Shown here: one piece after another, positions 18,980-36,490 of the stretch | Position numbering within the stretch: position 1 is the first letter of the stretch | Layout of the letters: the number at the start of each line of letters is the position of its first letter | DNA from: a bacterium | GTDB lineage: Bacteria; Auribacterota; UBA3054 | DNA: 36,490 bases | Assembly (NCBI GenBank): GCA_017554565.1 | Contig: JAFZID010000080.1 | Span: 1-36,490, forward strand | Reading direction: 5' to 3' | Made by a program: the position numbers and the translations under genes | Notes under the pieces: generated by a model | Told to the model about the DNA's origin: nothing | Database searches by the model: none | The model's input: only the letters and a program-made list of their open reading frames with translations

Positions 18980-18980
18980 C

Positions 18981-19016
18981 AAAAAGCCTTCCCGGCTTGC
19001 GCAGGGAAGGCTTTTT
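18981..19016. terminator. Bidirectional rho-independent terminator
   Basis: AAAAAGCCTTCCC (18981-18993) pairs with GGGAAGGCTTTTT (19004-19016) around a 10-base loop. T runs follow the stem on both strands, serving the AbiE remnant (plus) and the symporter (minus). Confidence 0.92.
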
Positions 19017-19041
19017 TCACGGTTCGTTTATAGTGAACGGT

Positions 19042-30636: not shown

Positions 30637-31757
30637 AGATCCTTCACGTCATAACGCGCCTTATTCAGGGCGGCGCCCAGGAGAACACGGTCTATACCGC
30701 CCTCGGCCAGGCTAAGCTCGGCCACGAGGTGACGCTCCTGCACGGCCCGGAACTGAACGGGGAGAGCCGCTTTCTAGCCGACCTTTCCGGCCTAAAAGAG
30801 GAAACGCTTCCCAGCCTTAAGCGCGCGCTTTCGCCTTACTGGGACGTGAAGGCTTATCATGACCTGAAAAAATACTTCCGCGAAAATTCCTTCGACATCA
30901 TCCACACCCACTCTTCCAAAGCCGGGATCTTGGGAAGGCTGGCGGCCGCCGACGCCCAAACAAGCGCCAAAATAGTCCACACCATCCACGGCTTGGCCTT
31001 CGACGAATTCCAGAGCGCGCTGAAAAACAAGCTCTACATCGCGGCGGAGAAAAAAGCCGCCAAGGTATCCGACGCCATCATCACGGTCTGCGACGCCATG
31101 CGCGACCAGGCTCTCCAGGCCGGCATAGGCAGAAAAGAACTCTACCACACCGTTCGGTCCGGCAGCGACCTCACAGCTTTCCAAAACGCCAAAAACTTGC
31201 GTTCCGAGAGCCGGCAAAAACTGGGCGTCGCCCAAGACGAACTGCTTTTCGTGGCGGTCACCAGGCTCTTCCCCCGGAAAGGCGCCCCGGAAATAATCAG
31301 ATCGCTCCCCAAGAGAGCCAAGCTTCTCCTCGTAGGCGGCGGGCCCTTGCAGGAAGAACTGCAATCCTACGCGGAAAAAGAACTCAAAGGCCGAGTCATC
31401 TTCTACGGTCAGGCCGCGCCGGAAGAGATCCCCGCGCTAATTTCCGCCGGCGACGCGCTTGTCCACGCTTCCTGGCGGGAAGGGTTGGCCCGAGTGCTCA
31501 TTCAGGCGCTGGCGGAAGGCATTCCCGTTATCTCCTCCAGGGCCGGAGGCGCCGCGGAAGCGGTCTCTGACGGCGTGAACGGCTTCCTCTTCCCCATTGG
31601 CGACGAAAGGGCCTTAAAAACGATTCTGGAGCGCGTGGCCAGCGATCCCGCCCTGCTCTCAAAGCTGAAAGAGGGCGCCCTCAAAACCGACGTCTCGAAT
31701 TACAGCATAGAGTCCATGGTAGCGGGCACCATGGAAGTCTACGCCTCTCTCACATAA
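30633..31757 (+). CDS. Glycosyltransferase family 4
   Basis: The 374-residue protein has the GT-B fold. The N-terminal half has VITRLIQGGAQENT and IIHTHSSKAGILGRLAA, and the C-terminal half has the nucleotide-sugar site HASWREGLARVLIQALAEG with GAAEAVSDGVNGFL. This is the GT4 pattern seen in exopolysaccharide and lipopolysaccharide synthesis. The start is a TTG at 30633 overlapping the hflX stop, with GGGAGAGGAAAG before it. The 3' end overlaps the convergent Rrf2 gene by 8 bases. The donor and acceptor sugars cannot be told. Confidence 0.93.
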   Translation: MKILHVITRLIQGGAQENTVYTALGQAKLGHEVTLLHGPELNGESRFLADLSGLKEETLPSLKRALSPYWDVKAYHDLKKYFRENSFDIIHTHSSKAGILGRLAAADAQTSAKIVHTIHGLAFDEFQSALKNKLYIAAEKKAAKVSDAIITVCDAMRDQALQAGIGRKELYHTVRSGSDLTAFQNAKNLRSESRQKLGVAQDELLFVAVTRLFPRKGAPEIIRSLPKRAKLLLVGGGPLQEELQSYAEKELKGRVIFYGQAAPEEIPALISAGDALVHASWREGLARVLIQALAEGIPVISSRAGGAAEAVSDGVNGFLFPIGDERALKTILERVASDPALLSKLKEGALKTDVSNYSIESMVAGTMEVYASLT

Positions 31758-32145
31758 GATCAGCGATAGTTTTTTTGCCGAAATATTCCTTGGTCATCTC
31801 GTCAAATTCCATCCACATGGCGATGGTGGAGCATTTTTTCCTGAAGGGGCATATCTTGGCGCCTTTCGAAAGACAGGCCACCGGAGCCACGGTCCCCTCC
31901 ATCAGTTCCAATATCTCCAGGACGGTGATCTTTTCGGGATCTTTCGTCAGCTTGTAGCCGCCGCATTTGCCGCTTTTGCCCACGATATATTTGGCCGCCA
32001 CCAGTTTTTTCAAAATTATCTCAAGGTAAAGCTTCGAGATGCATTGGCGATCCGCCACTTCTCCCAGCGGCGTAAAACGCTCCCTGTCTTGCCGCGCCAA
32101 GTCGACCAACAGTCTTATGGCGTATCTTCCTTTGGTGGATATCAT
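31750..32145 (-). CDS. Rrf2-family regulator with IscR-like cysteine triad
   Basis: From the ATG at 32145 (AAGGAG upstream) the protein has 131 residues. It has the family wing-helix start MISTKGRYAIRLLVDLA and the recognition region CISKLYLEIILKKLVAAKYI, then GKCGGYKL. Three cysteines, Cys91, Cys99 and Cys105 (CLSKGAKICPFRKKC), sit where IscR holds its 2Fe-2S cluster. Rrf2 proteins of this type sense iron-sulfur status, redox or nitric oxide. CymR, another Rrf2 protein, controls cysteine genes together with CysK. It is divergent from a thiol-related run with a palindrome in the shared promoter region. The frame is open upstream to 32271, but only 32145 has a ribosome-binding site and fits the family. 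Confidence 0.93.
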   Translation of the reverse strand: MISTKGRYAIRLLVDLARQDRERFTPLGEVADRQCISKLYLEIILKKLVAAKYIVGKSGKCGGYKLTKDPEKITVLEILELMEGTVAPVACLSKGAKICPFRKKCSTIAMWMEFDEMTKEYFGKKTIADLM

Positions 32146-32165
32146 ATTTTTCTCCTTTTCCAGAA

Positions 32166-32196
32166 AGTATATCAAATTAGTAGGCAATTGTGTCAA
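32166..32196 (-). promoter_or_regulatory. Promoter of the Rrf2 regulator gene
   Basis: TTGACA (32191-32196) and TATACT (32166-32171) on the minus strand with a 19-base spacer. A 17-base spacing to GATATA is also possible. The start would be about 15-20 bases before the ATG. Confidence 0.55.
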
Positions 32197-32220
32197 GCCC
32201 TCTTCCCATCTGCCCTTAAT

Positions 32221-32249
32221 CACATATTGACATAGTATGTGAATATGTG
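32221..32249. promoter_or_regulatory. Inverted repeat, candidate Rrf2 operator
   Basis: CACATATT (32221-32228) and AATATGTG (32242-32249) are perfect 8-base inverted repeats separated by 13 bases. A second copy of the half pattern, TATGTG (32236-32241), also pairs with CACATA. The repeat covers the -35 and most of the spacer of the promoter at 32227-32255, so a bound protein would block RNA polymerase. Confidence 0.5.
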
Positions 32250-32255
32250 TATAAT
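32227..32255 (+). promoter_or_regulatory. Consensus sigma-70 promoter of the thiol run
   Basis: TTGACA (32227-32232), 17-base spacer, TATAAT (32250-32255): both hexamers are full consensus. Start near 32262 gives a leader of about 36 bases ending in AAGGAGGGGG. Confidence 0.85.
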
Positions 32256-32297
32256 GGTGTCCTCTTAACAATGGGGATATGTCCCAAGGAGGGGGCT

Positions 32298-33683
32298 ATG
32301 AAAAGAAACGACATCGACGAAGCGATCTACCAAAAATACATCGCTCCCACGCAGAAGAAGCGCGGGGAATACATCGGTATTGAGATTGAAATGCCCATCG
32401 TCAACCTATCCAATCAGCCGGTAATAGAGGGCGTGGCGCATGAAATGGCCGAGTCTTTCCGCAAGCGTTTCTCTTTCAAGGTCGCTTCCAAGGACAGCGA
32501 AGGCGAGCCCTACAATTTGGTCGAAGGGAAAAGCGGCGACTCCCTCTCCTTCGACTGCAGCTATTCCAACCTCGAATTCTCCATGGGGAAGCGCCGGACC
32601 ATCTTCGAGATCAAGGAGAGCTTCGACAAATACTACGCCTATATCGCGAAATATCTCAAGCGTCACGGGCATACCGTGACCGGCATGGGCGTCAACCCCA
32701 ATTACAACATCAACCACAACTACCCCATCCCCAGCGAACGCTACAGGATGCTTCTGCATTACTTAAGGTCTTACAAAAACCACGTTGGGGAAAAAGGCGC
32801 GCGTTTCCACACCCGCCCGGACTTCGGGACCTTCACCAGCGCTTCCCAGGTCCAGCTGGACGTTGATTTCGCCAACCTCATAGACACCCTGAACGTCTTC
32901 GGGCTCCTCGAACCCTACAAGATACTGCTTTTCGCGAACTCGCCCTCAAGGGAGTATCCCGATCTTCTGTGCTCCAGGAACATCTTCTGGGAGCAAAGCA
33001 TGCACGGCTACAACAAAAGGAACGTGGGGCTCTTCGACAAAACCTTGAAGAGCGTGGACGATCTTGTGGCCTACATCAGGAAAACCGGCATTTACTGCGT
33101 TGAGCGCGACGGCAAGTACTTCGACTTCGACCCGGTCCCCGTAAGCGAATATTTCAAGCTGGACAGCCTAACCGGCAGATACTTCGACGGCAAGAGATAC
33201 CGCACCAAAACGATCGTTCCTCAAATGGAGGACATCAAGTATCTCAGGACCTTCAAACTGGAGGATCTCACTTACCGCGGCACCATAGAATACAGGAGCG
33301 CCTGCTGCCAACCCATAAAGGACAGCATGACGGTGGCGGCCTTCCACACCGGACTCATAGAGAAACTGCCGGAGCTTAAGGATCTTCTGGAAAAGGATAA
33401 TGTCATCTACGGCAAAGGCTACGGCGCCGACGACCTTCAGCACCTTTTCTCCGCCAGGAAGCTTCCCGCTTTCGCAGATGAGCGCAAAGTAAAAGAGCAG
33501 CTCCTAAGGATCCTCGCCCTCTCGGAAAGCGGACTTCAAAAAAGAGGCTTCGGGGAGGAAGTTTTCCTCAAGGCGCTCTTCGAGCGCGCGGAGAGGCTAA
33601 CAAACCCCGCCAAGGAATTGCTCGCCGGTCTCGGGGAGGGAAAGCCCATAAAAGAGTTTGTCGAGCGCTATGCGGTGATATAA
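32298..33683 (+). CDS. Glutamate-cysteine ligase-like protein, GCS2/EgtA type
   Basis: The 461-residue protein begins at 32298, where AAGGAGGGGG gives a strong ribosome-binding site. It has the GCS2 signs: GIEIEM (27-32), SNLEFS (90-95), MGVNPNY with PIPSERYRMLLHYL, SASQVQLDVDF, and RGTIEYRSACCQP. This branch includes EgtA of ergothioneine synthesis and plant-type gamma-glutamylcysteine ligase, which join glutamate to cysteine using ATP. A second, unrelated-branch ligase follows 15 bases later, so the two probably do not share one reaction. Alternative products are gamma-glutamyl amides of other amines. The TCQP-like ACC cysteine pair at RSACCQP is noted. Substrate is unknown. Confidence 0.8.
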   Translation: MKRNDIDEAIYQKYIAPTQKKRGEYIGIEIEMPIVNLSNQPVIEGVAHEMAESFRKRFSFKVASKDSEGEPYNLVEGKSGDSLSFDCSYSNLEFSMGKRRTIFEIKESFDKYYAYIAKYLKRHGHTVTGMGVNPNYNINHNYPIPSERYRMLLHYLRSYKNHVGEKGARFHTRPDFGTFTSASQVQLDVDFANLIDTLNVFGLLEPYKILLFANSPSREYPDLLCSRNIFWEQSMHGYNKRNVGLFDKTLKSVDDLVAYIRKTGIYCVERDGKYFDFDPVPVSEYFKLDSLTGRYFDGKRYRTKTIVPQMEDIKYLRTFKLEDLTYRGTIEYRSACCQPIKDSMTVAAFHTGLIEKLPELKDLLEKDNVIYGKGYGADDLQHLFSARKLPAFADERKVKEQLLRILALSESGLQKRGFGEEVFLKALFERAERLTNPAKELLAGLGEGKPIKEFVERYAVI

Positions 33684-33698
33684 TAGAAAAAGGACTGA

Positions 33699-34877
33699 AT
33701 GAAATTCAAAAGCGACATATTCAAAGGCTATTTTGGCTTGGAAAGAGAGACTCTGCGCGTCAATAGCGCAGGGCGCCTAGCCCTGTCAAAGCATCCTTTC
33801 AGATCAAAGCACCTTTCAAGGGATTTCTGCGAGAACCAGCTGGAAATTATCACGCCGGTCTGCGATTCCGTGAAAGGCGCCCTCAAGGCCTTGGGAAAAC
33901 TCGACGCCTACGCAAGGAAAACGATCGCCAAAAAAGGCGAGACGCTCTGGCTTTACTCCAACCCGCCCTACTTTGAGAGCGAATCGGAAATACCCATTGC
34001 CAAATACATTGGGAAATACTCTTACGAATACGACTACCGGGCCTTCCTGGAAAAGCGCTACGGCAAAAGGATCATGCTCTATTCCGGCATCCACTTCAAT
34101 TTTTCCTTCCGGGATGAGTTTTTCAAAAAGCAAGCAGAATCCAAAGACGAACTTTACCTCAGGTTGTTCAAGCAGCTCTCCCGTTACAGCTGGCTCTTAG
34201 TCCTTTTGACCGCCGCGAGCCCCCTTTACGACCGCTCCTTCGACAAAAAGAAGCCCGGCTTAGCTCTCAACAAAGACGCCTCGCCCAGAAGCGGAAGCAA
34301 GGGCTACTGGAACACCTTCATCCCGGCCCTGGATTATTCCTCCGTAGAAAATTACGTCGAGAGCGTCCAGGCCTACGTTAAAAGCGGCGCGCTTTATTCC
34401 GCCCACGAACTTTACTTGCCTGTCAGGATCAAGCCCAGGGGAGAGAACTCCCCGGAAAATCTCAAAAAGACCGGCATCGACCACATCGAGCTGAGAATGT
34501 TCGACCTTGATCCTCTGGAGAAGCTGGGCATCGCGGAAAAAGATCTCGACTTCGCGCATCTTCTCGCTGTTTATCTTCTCTCTGAAAAAGATTTCCGCTT
34601 CACCAAAGCGCTGCAGGCTGAAGCCGTGAAGAATCACCAGAACGCTGCCCTCTATGACTTAAAAAACGTCAGAATCGGAAAGAAACCGATCAAAGACGCC
34701 GCGCTCGCCGTCATAGGAAAAATGGAGCGTTATTTCTCAAGCTTTGAAGACAAAAAGGAAATAAACAAAATACTTGCTTACGAAAAGGAGAAACTGACCA
34801 AAAAAAGGCTCTGCGAACAAGTAAGAGAAGCCATCGGCTCCTCTTTGGACAACATACGAAAACTGGGAGGGAAATGA
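33699..34877 (+). CDS. gshA: Glutamate-cysteine ligase, GshA type, short form
   Basis: The protein has 392 residues; E. coli GshA has 518. Family motifs are GLERETLRV (13-21), DFCENQLEIITP (42-53), SGIHFNFSF and HIELRMFDLDP. They carry the ATP/metal and glutamate contacts of the GshA/GshAB class. The C-terminal region is lean and basic, and no glutathione-synthetase domain is fused. Without gshB in the window the product would stop at gamma-glutamylcysteine. AAAAAGGAC precedes the ATG. It follows the GCS2-like gene by 15 bases and precedes the amidotransferase by one base, so co-expression is almost certain. Confidence 0.9.
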   Translation: MKFKSDIFKGYFGLERETLRVNSAGRLALSKHPFRSKHLSRDFCENQLEIITPVCDSVKGALKALGKLDAYARKTIAKKGETLWLYSNPPYFESESEIPIAKYIGKYSYEYDYRAFLEKRYGKRIMLYSGIHFNFSFRDEFFKKQAESKDELYLRLFKQLSRYSWLLVLLTAASPLYDRSFDKKKPGLALNKDASPRSGSKGYWNTFIPALDYSSVENYVESVQAYVKSGALYSAHELYLPVRIKPRGENSPENLKKTGIDHIELRMFDLDPLEKLGIAEKDLDFAHLLAVYLLSEKDFRFTKALQAEAVKNHQNAALYDLKNVRIGKKPIKDAALAVIGKMERYFSSFEDKKEINKILAYEKEKLTKKRLCEQVREAIGSSLDNIRKLGGK

Positions 34878-34878
34878 T

Positions 34879-35640
34879 ATGTGCGAATTGCTTGGAATCT
34901 CCTCCCATGAACCTTTGAACGTCAAGCCTTACCTCGAGGCTTTCCTCCGCCACAGCCAGAAATTCCCTCACGGCTGGGGTCTTTTGAGAAGCGATGAGGA
35001 TGTCTTTGGCGTCATAAAGGAACCCATAGCCGCCTACAAAAGCGAGATCGCAAAGGAAACTTTGGACCGCCTTGCCCCGCAAAACAACATTGTGGCTCAC
35101 ATAAGGTTCGCAACAATCGGCTCCATCAAAACGGAGAACTGCCATCCCTTCTGCGGCAAGGACTCCACCGGGCGCGAATGGACCGTGGCCCACAACGGCA
35201 CGGTCTATTCCGGCAAATACCTGACGAAATATCTTGGGCTTCAGCAGGGCGACACAGACTCCGAAAAGATCTTGCTCTTCATAATCGACGAAGTGAACAA
35301 GGCCCAGAGTCAAAAAACCTTGAGCGCCAGGAAGCGCTTCGAAGTCGTGGACGAGGCTGTCAGAAAGCTTTCCCACCGCAACAAGCTGAACCTTATCATC
35401 TTTGACGGAGAGCTGCTCTACGTTCACAAGAACATGAACAACTCCCTGTGTTACAAGCACGAGGACAACAGCTTCATCTTCTCGACCACGCCTTTGGACG
35501 ACGGGACCTGGGAAGACTTCCCCCTTTCCCAGCTCTTCGCCTTCCACAACGGGAAAAAAGTCTTCCGCGGACACGCGCACAACGAGATCTTCGTTCCCAA
35601 CCTAAATTACGCCAACATAACCAACGCAATTAACATTTAA
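34879..35640 (+). CDS. Class II glutamine amidotransferase, YafJ/EgtC type
   Basis: The 253-residue Ntn-hydrolase starts MCELLG, exposing Cys2 as nucleophile after methionine removal. PHGWGL, AHIRFATIG, NCHPFC, VAHNGTV and GDTDSEKIL fit the YafJ/EgtC group, which lacks a synthase domain. EgtC removes the gamma-glutamyl group from an ergothioneine intermediate, so in this setting, next to two gamma-glutamyl ligases, a gamma-glutamyl-amide hydrolase role is the best guess. Ammonia donation from glutamine is the alternative. One base separates it from gshA, with GGGAGGGAAATG as ribosome-binding site. Confidence 0.9.
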   Translation: MCELLGISSHEPLNVKPYLEAFLRHSQKFPHGWGLLRSDEDVFGVIKEPIAAYKSEIAKETLDRLAPQNNIVAHIRFATIGSIKTENCHPFCGKDSTGREWTVAHNGTVYSGKYLTKYLGLQQGDTDSEKILLFIIDEVNKAQSQKTLSARKRFEVVDEAVRKLSHRNKLNLIIFDGELLYVHKNMNNSLCYKHEDNSFIFSTTPLDDGTWEDFPLSQLFAFHNGKKVFRGHAHNEIFVPNLNYANITNAINI

Positions 35641-35658
35641 AAATACAGGAGAATTACC

Positions 35659-36108
35659 ATGGCCAAAATCAACCAAAGCATACTCGACCTGGTCGGCAAC
35701 ACCCCGCTCGTGGAACTCAACCGCTATAAGAGCGAGAAAGGCTACAAGGCCCGCCTCATCGCGAAAGTAGAGTATTTCAACCCCATCGGCTCCGTCAAGG
35801 ACCGCATCGCCTCTTACATCATCAGCGAGTCTGAGAAGAGAGGCCAGCTCGTTCCCGGTTCCGTCATCATCGAGCCGACTTCCGGCAACACCGGCATCGG
35901 CTTAGCAGCCGTCGCGGCGGCCAAGGGCTACCGCATCATCATCACCATGCCCGACACCATGAGCATTGAGCGCCGCAACCTGCTCAAGGCCTTCGGCGCG
36001 GAATTGGTCCTGACTCCGGGCGCGGAGGGCATGAAGGGCGCCATCAAGAAAGCCAACGAGCTGGGTATCACCATGCTCTTCATCGGCGTTCGCCACTTCA
36101 AACACTAA
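35659..36108 (+). CDS. cysK: Cysteine synthase, truncated at a suspected junction
   Basis: It uses O-acetylserine and sulfide to make cysteine with pyridoxal phosphate. The ATG has AGGAGA before it. The first 135 residues are normal: [27 protein letters not shown] (PLP lysine), [14 protein letters not shown] and [15 protein letters not shown]. After ANEL (about 36063) the family sequence stops and an unrelated 14-residue end, [14 protein letters not shown], leads to a stop at 36108. A complete enzyme has about 300-310 residues. The lost half binds the rest of PLP, so this version would not work. The change coincides with a switch to foreign-looking sequence. Confidence 0.9.
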
Positions 36109-36152
36109 GGGAAATGTACAATGAACAATTAACAATTATCGTATAATCGAAT
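36059..36152. other. Probable chimeric junction and foreign intergenic sequence
   Basis: cysK homology ends near 36059-36063. The frame continues as a short unrelated peptide end, followed by an AT-rich spacer (ATGAACAATTAACAATTATC) typical in style of Bacteroidales intergenic regions, then purD. It may be a misassembly or a recombination point; the exact base cannot be fixed. Confidence 0.6.
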
Positions 36153-36490
36153 ATGAATAAAGTACTAGTTATCGGAGGCGGGGGTCGCGAACATGCCATT
36201 GCAGATGCGTTGCATCGTTCGCCGCAGGTAGGTCAGATTTTCTGTGCGCCCGGCAATGCGGGAACTGCCGTCATCGCTACCACCACTGGGTTGAAAGATA
36301 CCGATGTGGAGGGACTGTTGCGTTTCGCCCAGGAGAACCAGATTGACTTGACTGTGGTGGGCCCCGAGGCGGCTCTGGCAGTCGGTATTGTGGATACTTT
36401 CCGTGCCGCTGGATTGGCGATTTTCGGTCATACGAAGTCAGCCACCCGTATCGAGAGCAGCAAGGAGTTCGCCAAGGAATTGATGATGAA
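36153..36490 (+). CDS. purD: Phosphoribosylamine-glycine ligase, 5' part, from a different source
   Basis: The 112 visible codons begin MNKVLVIGGGGREHAIA, the PurD N-terminal nucleotide fold, and go on with CAPGNAGTA, VVGPEAALAVGIVD and IFGHTKSATRIESSKEFAK. PurD joins glycine to phosphoribosylamine in purine synthesis. The gene runs past the window edge. Codon usage differs clearly from the rest: CGT for arginine, many TTG leucines, GAT and GTG mixed, whereas neighbours favour CGC, CTC/CTG and GAC. No clear purine-rich ribosome site precedes it, as is usual in Bacteroidetes. Confidence 0.93.
   Translation, partial: MNKVLVIGGGGREHAIADALHRSPQVGQIFCAPGNAGTAVIATTTGLKDTDVEGLLRFAQENQIDLTVVGPEAALAVGIVDTFRAAGLAIFGHTKSATRIESSKEFAKELMM

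Follow-up and report, generated by a model that had tools for sequence, protein, structure and literature searches.

Upstream of a glutamate-cysteine ligase operon, we identified a 29-bp palindrome that overlaps a full-consensus promoter and is the predicted operator of a divergently encoded Rrf2-family regulator. On our preferred reading, to which we assign a confidence of 0.8, the regulator would repress the operon from this site, regulator and operator would derive from Bacillota, and the change of the half-site to ACATA would have accompanied a Lys39-to-Leu substitution in the recognition helix. The window, meaning the whole 36,490-nucleotide stretch of DNA that was analyzed, contains the following features, given with strand and basis.

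31753..32145, minus strand: Rrf2-family regulator (rrf2), 131 aa, with CX7CX5C (Cys91, Cys99, Cys105) and recognition helix ISKLYLE containing Leu39 (profiles, alignment)
32166..32174, minus strand: probable extended -10 TGATATACT of the rrf2 promoter (by eye; conserved 6/6)
32221..32249, strand-neutral: whole 29-bp palindrome, centre 32235 (palindrome scan of the window)
32222..32240, plus strand: predicted core operator ACATATTGACATAGTATGT, ACATA-N9-TATGT, centre 32231 (sequence, six-genome conservation, homologous cores)
32224/32238, plus strand: putatively re-coded pair in the core operator, -7/+7 (comparison with relatives)
32230..32248, plus strand: second overlapping register ACATAGTATGTGAATATGT, centre 32239, 8 bp on (sequence)
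32227..32255, plus strand: full-consensus promoter TTGACA-17-TATAAT of the glutamate-cysteine ligase operon (sequence, homologous loci)
32298..33683, plus strand: glutamate-cysteine ligase-like gene (GCS2), first gene after the promoter (profiles)
33699..34877, plus strand: GshA-like gene (Glu_cys_ligase) (profiles)
34879..35640, plus strand: class-II glutamine amidotransferase-like gene (profile)
35659..36072, plus strand: 5' part of cysK, up to residue 138 (sequence match)

The palindrome, the promoter and the operon

The original prediction placed a perfect 8-bp inverted repeat around the -35 and spacer of a consensus promoter, and every element lies where it was described: TTGACA at 32227-32232, TATAAT at 32250-32255 after a 17-base spacer, and arms CACATATT (32221-32228) and AATATGTG (32242-32249). 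No other TTGACA-N16-18-TATAAT occurs on either strand of the window. An 8-bp repeat by itself is common and not noteworthy; the window holds 37 perfect ones with gaps of up to 20 bases, against a mean of 16 per simulated window (40 windows generated from the window's own dinucleotides). The rare object is the complete 29-bp element, CACATATTGACATA-G-TATGTGAATATGTG, in which 13 of 14 pairs match across 14-bp arms and one central base. It is the sole palindrome of this kind in the window, and one in total occurred across the 40 simulated windows. The 8-bp arms are nested within it and share their centre with an inner part, ACATA-G-TATGT, that the original prediction missed. An alternative parsing gives two ACATA-N9-TATGT repeats that overlap with an offset of 8 bp (32222-32240 and 32230-32248), or four near-copies of one half-site. 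Another place in the window, 18980-19017, also pairs at 13 of 14 positions with 14-bp arms, with spacers of 4-10.

Among 39 genomes searched, the ligase gene was matched in seven, comprising the six genomes of the genus that carry a full rrf2 and one weak match (E 2.5e-4); in all six it is divergent from rrf2 by coordinates. At the distal end of the operon (35659-36490), the cysK match ends after residue 138, and residues 178-310 are encoded elsewhere in this genome, running precisely up to the terminus of contig C188. After cysK, the window has a purD fragment that shares just 40-46% identity with its counterparts in six other genomes of the genus. The end of the window's contig is probably a chimeric assembly join, or else a rearrangement.

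The regulator

The divergent gene was predicted to encode an Rrf2 regulator, and profile scores agree, with PF02082 at 105.6 bits (cut-off 30) and TIGR00738 at 110.9 bits (cut-off 73.3). The protein falls below the equivalog cut-offs for IscR (TIGR02010, 79.9 versus 207.55 bits), CymR (NF047409, 73.7 versus 195), RirA (NF008886, 51.1 versus 193) and NsrR (NF008240, 34 versus 182). By profile it is therefore a member of the Rrf2 family, and by curated cut-offs it is not IscR, CymR, RirA or NsrR. The CX7CX5C triad is kept in all six genus proteins and in all 77 relatives described below (83/83), so the window regulator likely carries an iron-sulfur cluster on these cysteines.

Conservation within the genus

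The genus is represented by eight draft genomes, and its named records come from yak or sheep rumen or omasum; six of the eight carry a full rrf2. G005 retains only residues 91-130, cut by a contig end, and G001, 83% complete, holds a distant Rrf2 paralogue only; G001 is the one informative genus genome without gene and without site. The palindrome is present in all six genomes with a full rrf2. All 19 columns of the core (32222-32240) are invariant, against 18 of 31 in 32190-32220, so that the alignment proposed as a check finds the repeat conserved alongside its promoter. The conserved dyad is this 19-bp core and not the outer arms of the repeat as first described. The -10 is likewise invariant in six of six, and the 3' flanks retain 16 of 20 columns (32256-32275) and 7 of 22 (32276-32297). 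Near the rrf2 start, 34 of 40 columns are invariant; conservation within the genus alone is therefore no proof of an operator.

A pattern spanning A-type and C-type sites, allowing 0-1 mismatch, occurs once per genome in the six with a full rrf2 and in neither of the other two. At up to 3 mismatches, extra copies number zero in four genus genomes, one each in G002 and G007, and two each in G001 and G005; as control patterns give 0-3 per genome, none of these is credited.

Homologous operators and the origin of the regulator

A scan of species genomes returned at least 548 relatives of the regulator, of which the best 80 were kept: three genus members at 88% identity and 77 others at 50-58%. 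These 77 are mostly rumen and gut Bacillota, with two labelled Eggerthellaceae and one Aeromonadales. Within the wider phylum, the best full-length match outside the genus is 39% identical. A tree of 105 proteins, rooted at the midpoint only, included the six genus proteins, the 77 relatives, 21 wider-phylum homologues and B. subtilis CymR. The 21 came from 24 phylum, order and paralogue loci (L007-L030), as L011 and L030 gave no usable tblastn match and L019 is a fragment; one of them, L028, is the paralogue from G001. The genus regulators are nested inside the 77 relatives, without resolution of their exact sister group, and together they split from the 21 phylum homologues at 100/99. Since the genus regulator thus sits inside a mostly Bacillota clade with ACCTA-type operators, it was probably acquired horizontally, and transfer from Bacillota into the genus would be the simplest reading.

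Upstream of the 77 relatives (from the best 80 of at least 548), the core was found in the divergent direction at 60 loci with up to 4 mismatches and at 57 with up to 2; at 17 of the 77, it was not found upstream even with 4 mismatches. The relatives' element reads ACCTATTGACA(T/C)(A/G)GTAGG and lies over the -35, in the same place as in the window. Their promoters carry an exact TTGACA in 52 of 60 cases, a spacer for which 17 is the best of 16-18 in 58 of 60, and a -10 with at most one mismatch in 39 of 60. Classified by motif, the divergent gene is iscS at 34 loci, metY-like at 9, cysK at 1 and unclassified at 16, the other 17 being those without a core. The weakest part of the element in relatives is the right outer arm, which is homologous to the right half-site of the second register. 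When 20 relatives were searched genome-wide with a 27-base pattern (up to 2 mismatches), matches were found in 18, with control matches in two genomes; in G039, both matches look unlike the window-type site.

At 49 of the 77 loci, a second site (up to 4 mismatches) lies on the regulator's own promoter. Sought by eye in the genus, such an autoregulatory site was represented by a half-site only: a lone GCCTACTA (GCCTA) by the rrf2 promoter, conserved in six of six genomes. In 32160-32190 on the minus strand, the relatives' second site is reduced to this conserved half-site beside the extended -10 of rrf2. Autoregulation may have been lost in the genus.

The window operator appears to derive from the ACCTA-N9-TAGGT operator of these mostly Bacillota Rrf2 regulators. 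Its place over the -35 and its spacing equal theirs, and its sequence is ACATA-N9-TATGT in place of ACCTA-N9-TAGGT. On this comparison, the altered half-site makes a variant of an operator type already known, and no new class; within its own clade, as far as sampled, it is new. The suggestion of a new Rrf2 operator consequently survives for the half-site letter, but not in the sense of an unrelated class, as an ACCTA-N9-TAGGT derivative that keeps the IscR-like C at -8 would be no such thing.

A half-site change accompanied by a change at residue 39

Among 57 sites from relatives, 19 positions are at least 85% conserved; the genus is equal at 17 and differs at positions 3 and 17 only. Position 3 is C in 56 of 57 relatives and A in six of six genus members, and position 17 is G in 57 of 57 and T in six of six. 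These positions, -7 and +7, are partners in the 19-bp dyad. The 57 sites were first collected with a pattern containing the C and G in question; with both letters left free, the result held (C in 53 of 54 and G in 54 of 54 relatives). By our own estimate, chance would place two departures on dyad partners, and with letters that complement each other, in about 1% of cases. At the third free half-site (position 25), the genus has T where 48 of 57 relatives have G.

Residue 39 of the recognition helix is Lys in all 77 relatives and Leu in all six genus members. Pairing of lysine with G, and of leucine with the methyl group of thymine, would be familiar chemistry, although the equivalent residue of IscR reads +5. 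The helices align without gaps, residue 39 corresponding to Ser40 of E. coli IscR and residue 42 to Glu43. In the IscR-DNA complex, Glu43 contacts C at -8, Ser40 a purine at +5 and Gln44 a T at +4 (PMC9338935, Table 2; PMC5411485). A dyad centred at 32231 puts the changed pair at 7, directly beside the C at -8; that C and Glu42 are both retained in the genus. Other residues are also fixed as different between genus and relatives (35, 47, 53, 57, 101 and 123), and wing residue 61 is C or S in the genus versus G, H or N in relatives.

A separate draw of 147 genomes gave 107 with a match, from which the best 30 loci were taken (L189 is L034 again, already among the 77). All 30 carry Lys39; in three, offset by one residue, it was read by eye. 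When letters 3 and 17 were left unconstrained, an exact dyad was found at 15 of these loci, each of them C-type. At up to 3 mismatches, 17 of the 30 gave a match, one of which (L191) is not C-type. Two Lys39 loci depart from the C-type: L191 of the separate draw, a poor match only with A at 3 and 17, and L047 of the 77, with A at position 3. Among 14 Lys39 loci with ISLKY or ISEKY helices, L211 has a dyad, and the other 13 (L196, L197, L199, L200, L202, L204, L209, L212, L213, L214, L216, L217 and L218) have none in the 400 bases upstream. L212 and L214 lie directly behind an apparent cysK, by eye, and their operator may be elsewhere.

A-type sites were also sought in one Bacillota order, where 4 of 146 genomes matched at 2 mismatches, close to the 3 genomes matched by the control. 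The single perfect palindrome in that order (G098, L185) lies just upstream of a gene that is TetR-like by eye and has a different core; it was set aside.

Operator and recognition helix appear to have evolved together. On the tree, residue 39 and the half-site each changed once, which leaves a single transition to link them, and from it we infer a Lys39-to-Leu switch in specificity.

Proposed mechanism and alternative explanations

We propose that a dimer centred at 32231, possibly with a second at 32239, covers the -35 and the spacer, blocks RNA polymerase and would thereby repress the operon. The glutamate-cysteine ligase, gshA, amidotransferase and cysK genes would then stay silent until the regulator is deprived of its signal; this is probably an iron-sulfur cluster on CX7CX5C that reports iron-sulfur or cysteine status. 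In C. perfringens, cysteine limitation induces a gene cluster that contains iscS, iscU and an Rrf2 gene (PMC2940859), which by analogy suggests that the window operon would be derepressed when iron-sulfur clusters or cysteine run low. The rrf2 gene would have entered the genus from Bacillota with ACCTA-type operators over iscS and metY promoters, and the half-site would have become ACATA in the genus together with the Lys39-to-Leu change in the recognition helix.

That the palindrome arose by chance in A+T-rich promoter DNA could be argued from the abundance of 8-bp inverted repeats in the window, but the rarity of 13/14 palindromes in the simulations, together with conservation and the homologous sites in relatives, makes this highly improbable. 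Another regulator could bind the palindrome while Rrf2 acts elsewhere, for instance at the GCCTA half-site of its own promoter, whose 6/6 conservation would fit such a role. The homologous element, however, adjoins an Rrf2 gene in many other lineages, and the genus site occurs only in genomes with a full rrf2; we consider a different binder unlikely. The original claim of regulation by the divergent Rrf2 keeps its support in a conserved element that co-occurs with the full gene and has homologues beside Rrf2 genes elsewhere, and binding itself stands as a prediction.

A more serious competitor accepts the site as an Rrf2 operator and takes the half-site change as drift in a single-target regulator of relaxed specificity, with nothing special about residue 39. 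A single recognizable target per genome lowers the cost of drift, and several other residues changed too; but the two departures are each other's partners in the dyad and their letters are complementary, the third free half-site has changed to the same letter, and all 19 core columns were afterwards fixed in the genus. Drift is to our minds a possible, though not the probable, account. Several observations also weigh against the reading we prefer, a co-evolved operator of Bacillota origin. In the known complex, IscR Ser40 contacts +5 and not 7; residues other than 39 changed as well; L047 and L191 depart from the C-type despite Lys39; no core was found at up to 4 mismatches in 17 of the 77 relatives; and a lone GCCTA half-site is conserved near the genus rrf2 promoter.

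A bolder version of the preferred reading concerns why the letter changed. In relatives, three half-sites read CC and the fourth sits in TTGACA. With both of its letters left free in the search, this fourth half-site reads CC in 0 of 59 cases and CA in 52; the matching place in the site on the regulator's own promoter reads CC in 42 of 49. The relatives' promoter and operator would then be in conflict, and re-coding the regulator would have resolved it, with Lys39-to-Leu moving the preference from CC to CA. Loss of the lysine would forfeit a guanine contact and leucine would gain a thymine-methyl contact. On the assumption that the protein contacts the half-site in TTGACA, this pinned half-site would thereby become perfect, the other three would follow, and a perfect operator would coincide with a perfect -35. 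All four half-sites are alike in the genus, as this scenario predicts, and we advance it tentatively, at somewhat worse than even odds.

If the preferred reading holds, the genus and its relatives would offer a natural before-and-after pair for the DNA-recognition code of Rrf2 proteins, involving one helix residue and one symmetric base pair. It also predicts that the Rrf2 regulators encoded beside iscS, metY or cysK in gut Bacillota, a large group, share one operator.

Comparison with known systems

The spacing of the cysteines in RirA, C-X7-C-X5-C, is the same as in the window regulator. RirA is likewise an Rrf2 sensor, with a [4Fe-4S] cluster and three cysteine ligands (PMC6748827), but its targets differ. 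With the type 2 sites of E. coli IscR (PMC5411485, PMC9338935), the window system has in common Glu43 (window Glu42) and C at -8; it differs at Ser40 (Leu39), Gln44 (Ile43) and wing Arg59 (Ser58). B. subtilis CymR is also an Rrf2 regulator of cysteine metabolism with cysK among its targets (PMC3828012), whereas CymR is described as binding no cluster (PMC9338935) and the window regulator has three cysteines.

Among the papers listed, our literature search found none on the window operator; the ACCTA motif may already be known from the clostridial IscR/CymR logos (RegPrecise) mentioned in PMC3828012. The clostridial IscR/CymR-like Rrf2 beside iscS-iscU (C. perfringens Cpe1786; PMC2940859) likewise adjoins cysteine or iron-sulfur genes, and the relatives sampled here have the homologous operator over the -35. 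The clostridial targets are iron-sulfur cluster assembly or sulfhydrylase genes, whereas the window's target would be a glutamate-cysteine ligase operon, and the half-site is ACATA in the window versus ACCTA in the sampled relatives. By analogy, the window system would work like a divergent repressor of the IscR/CymR kind.
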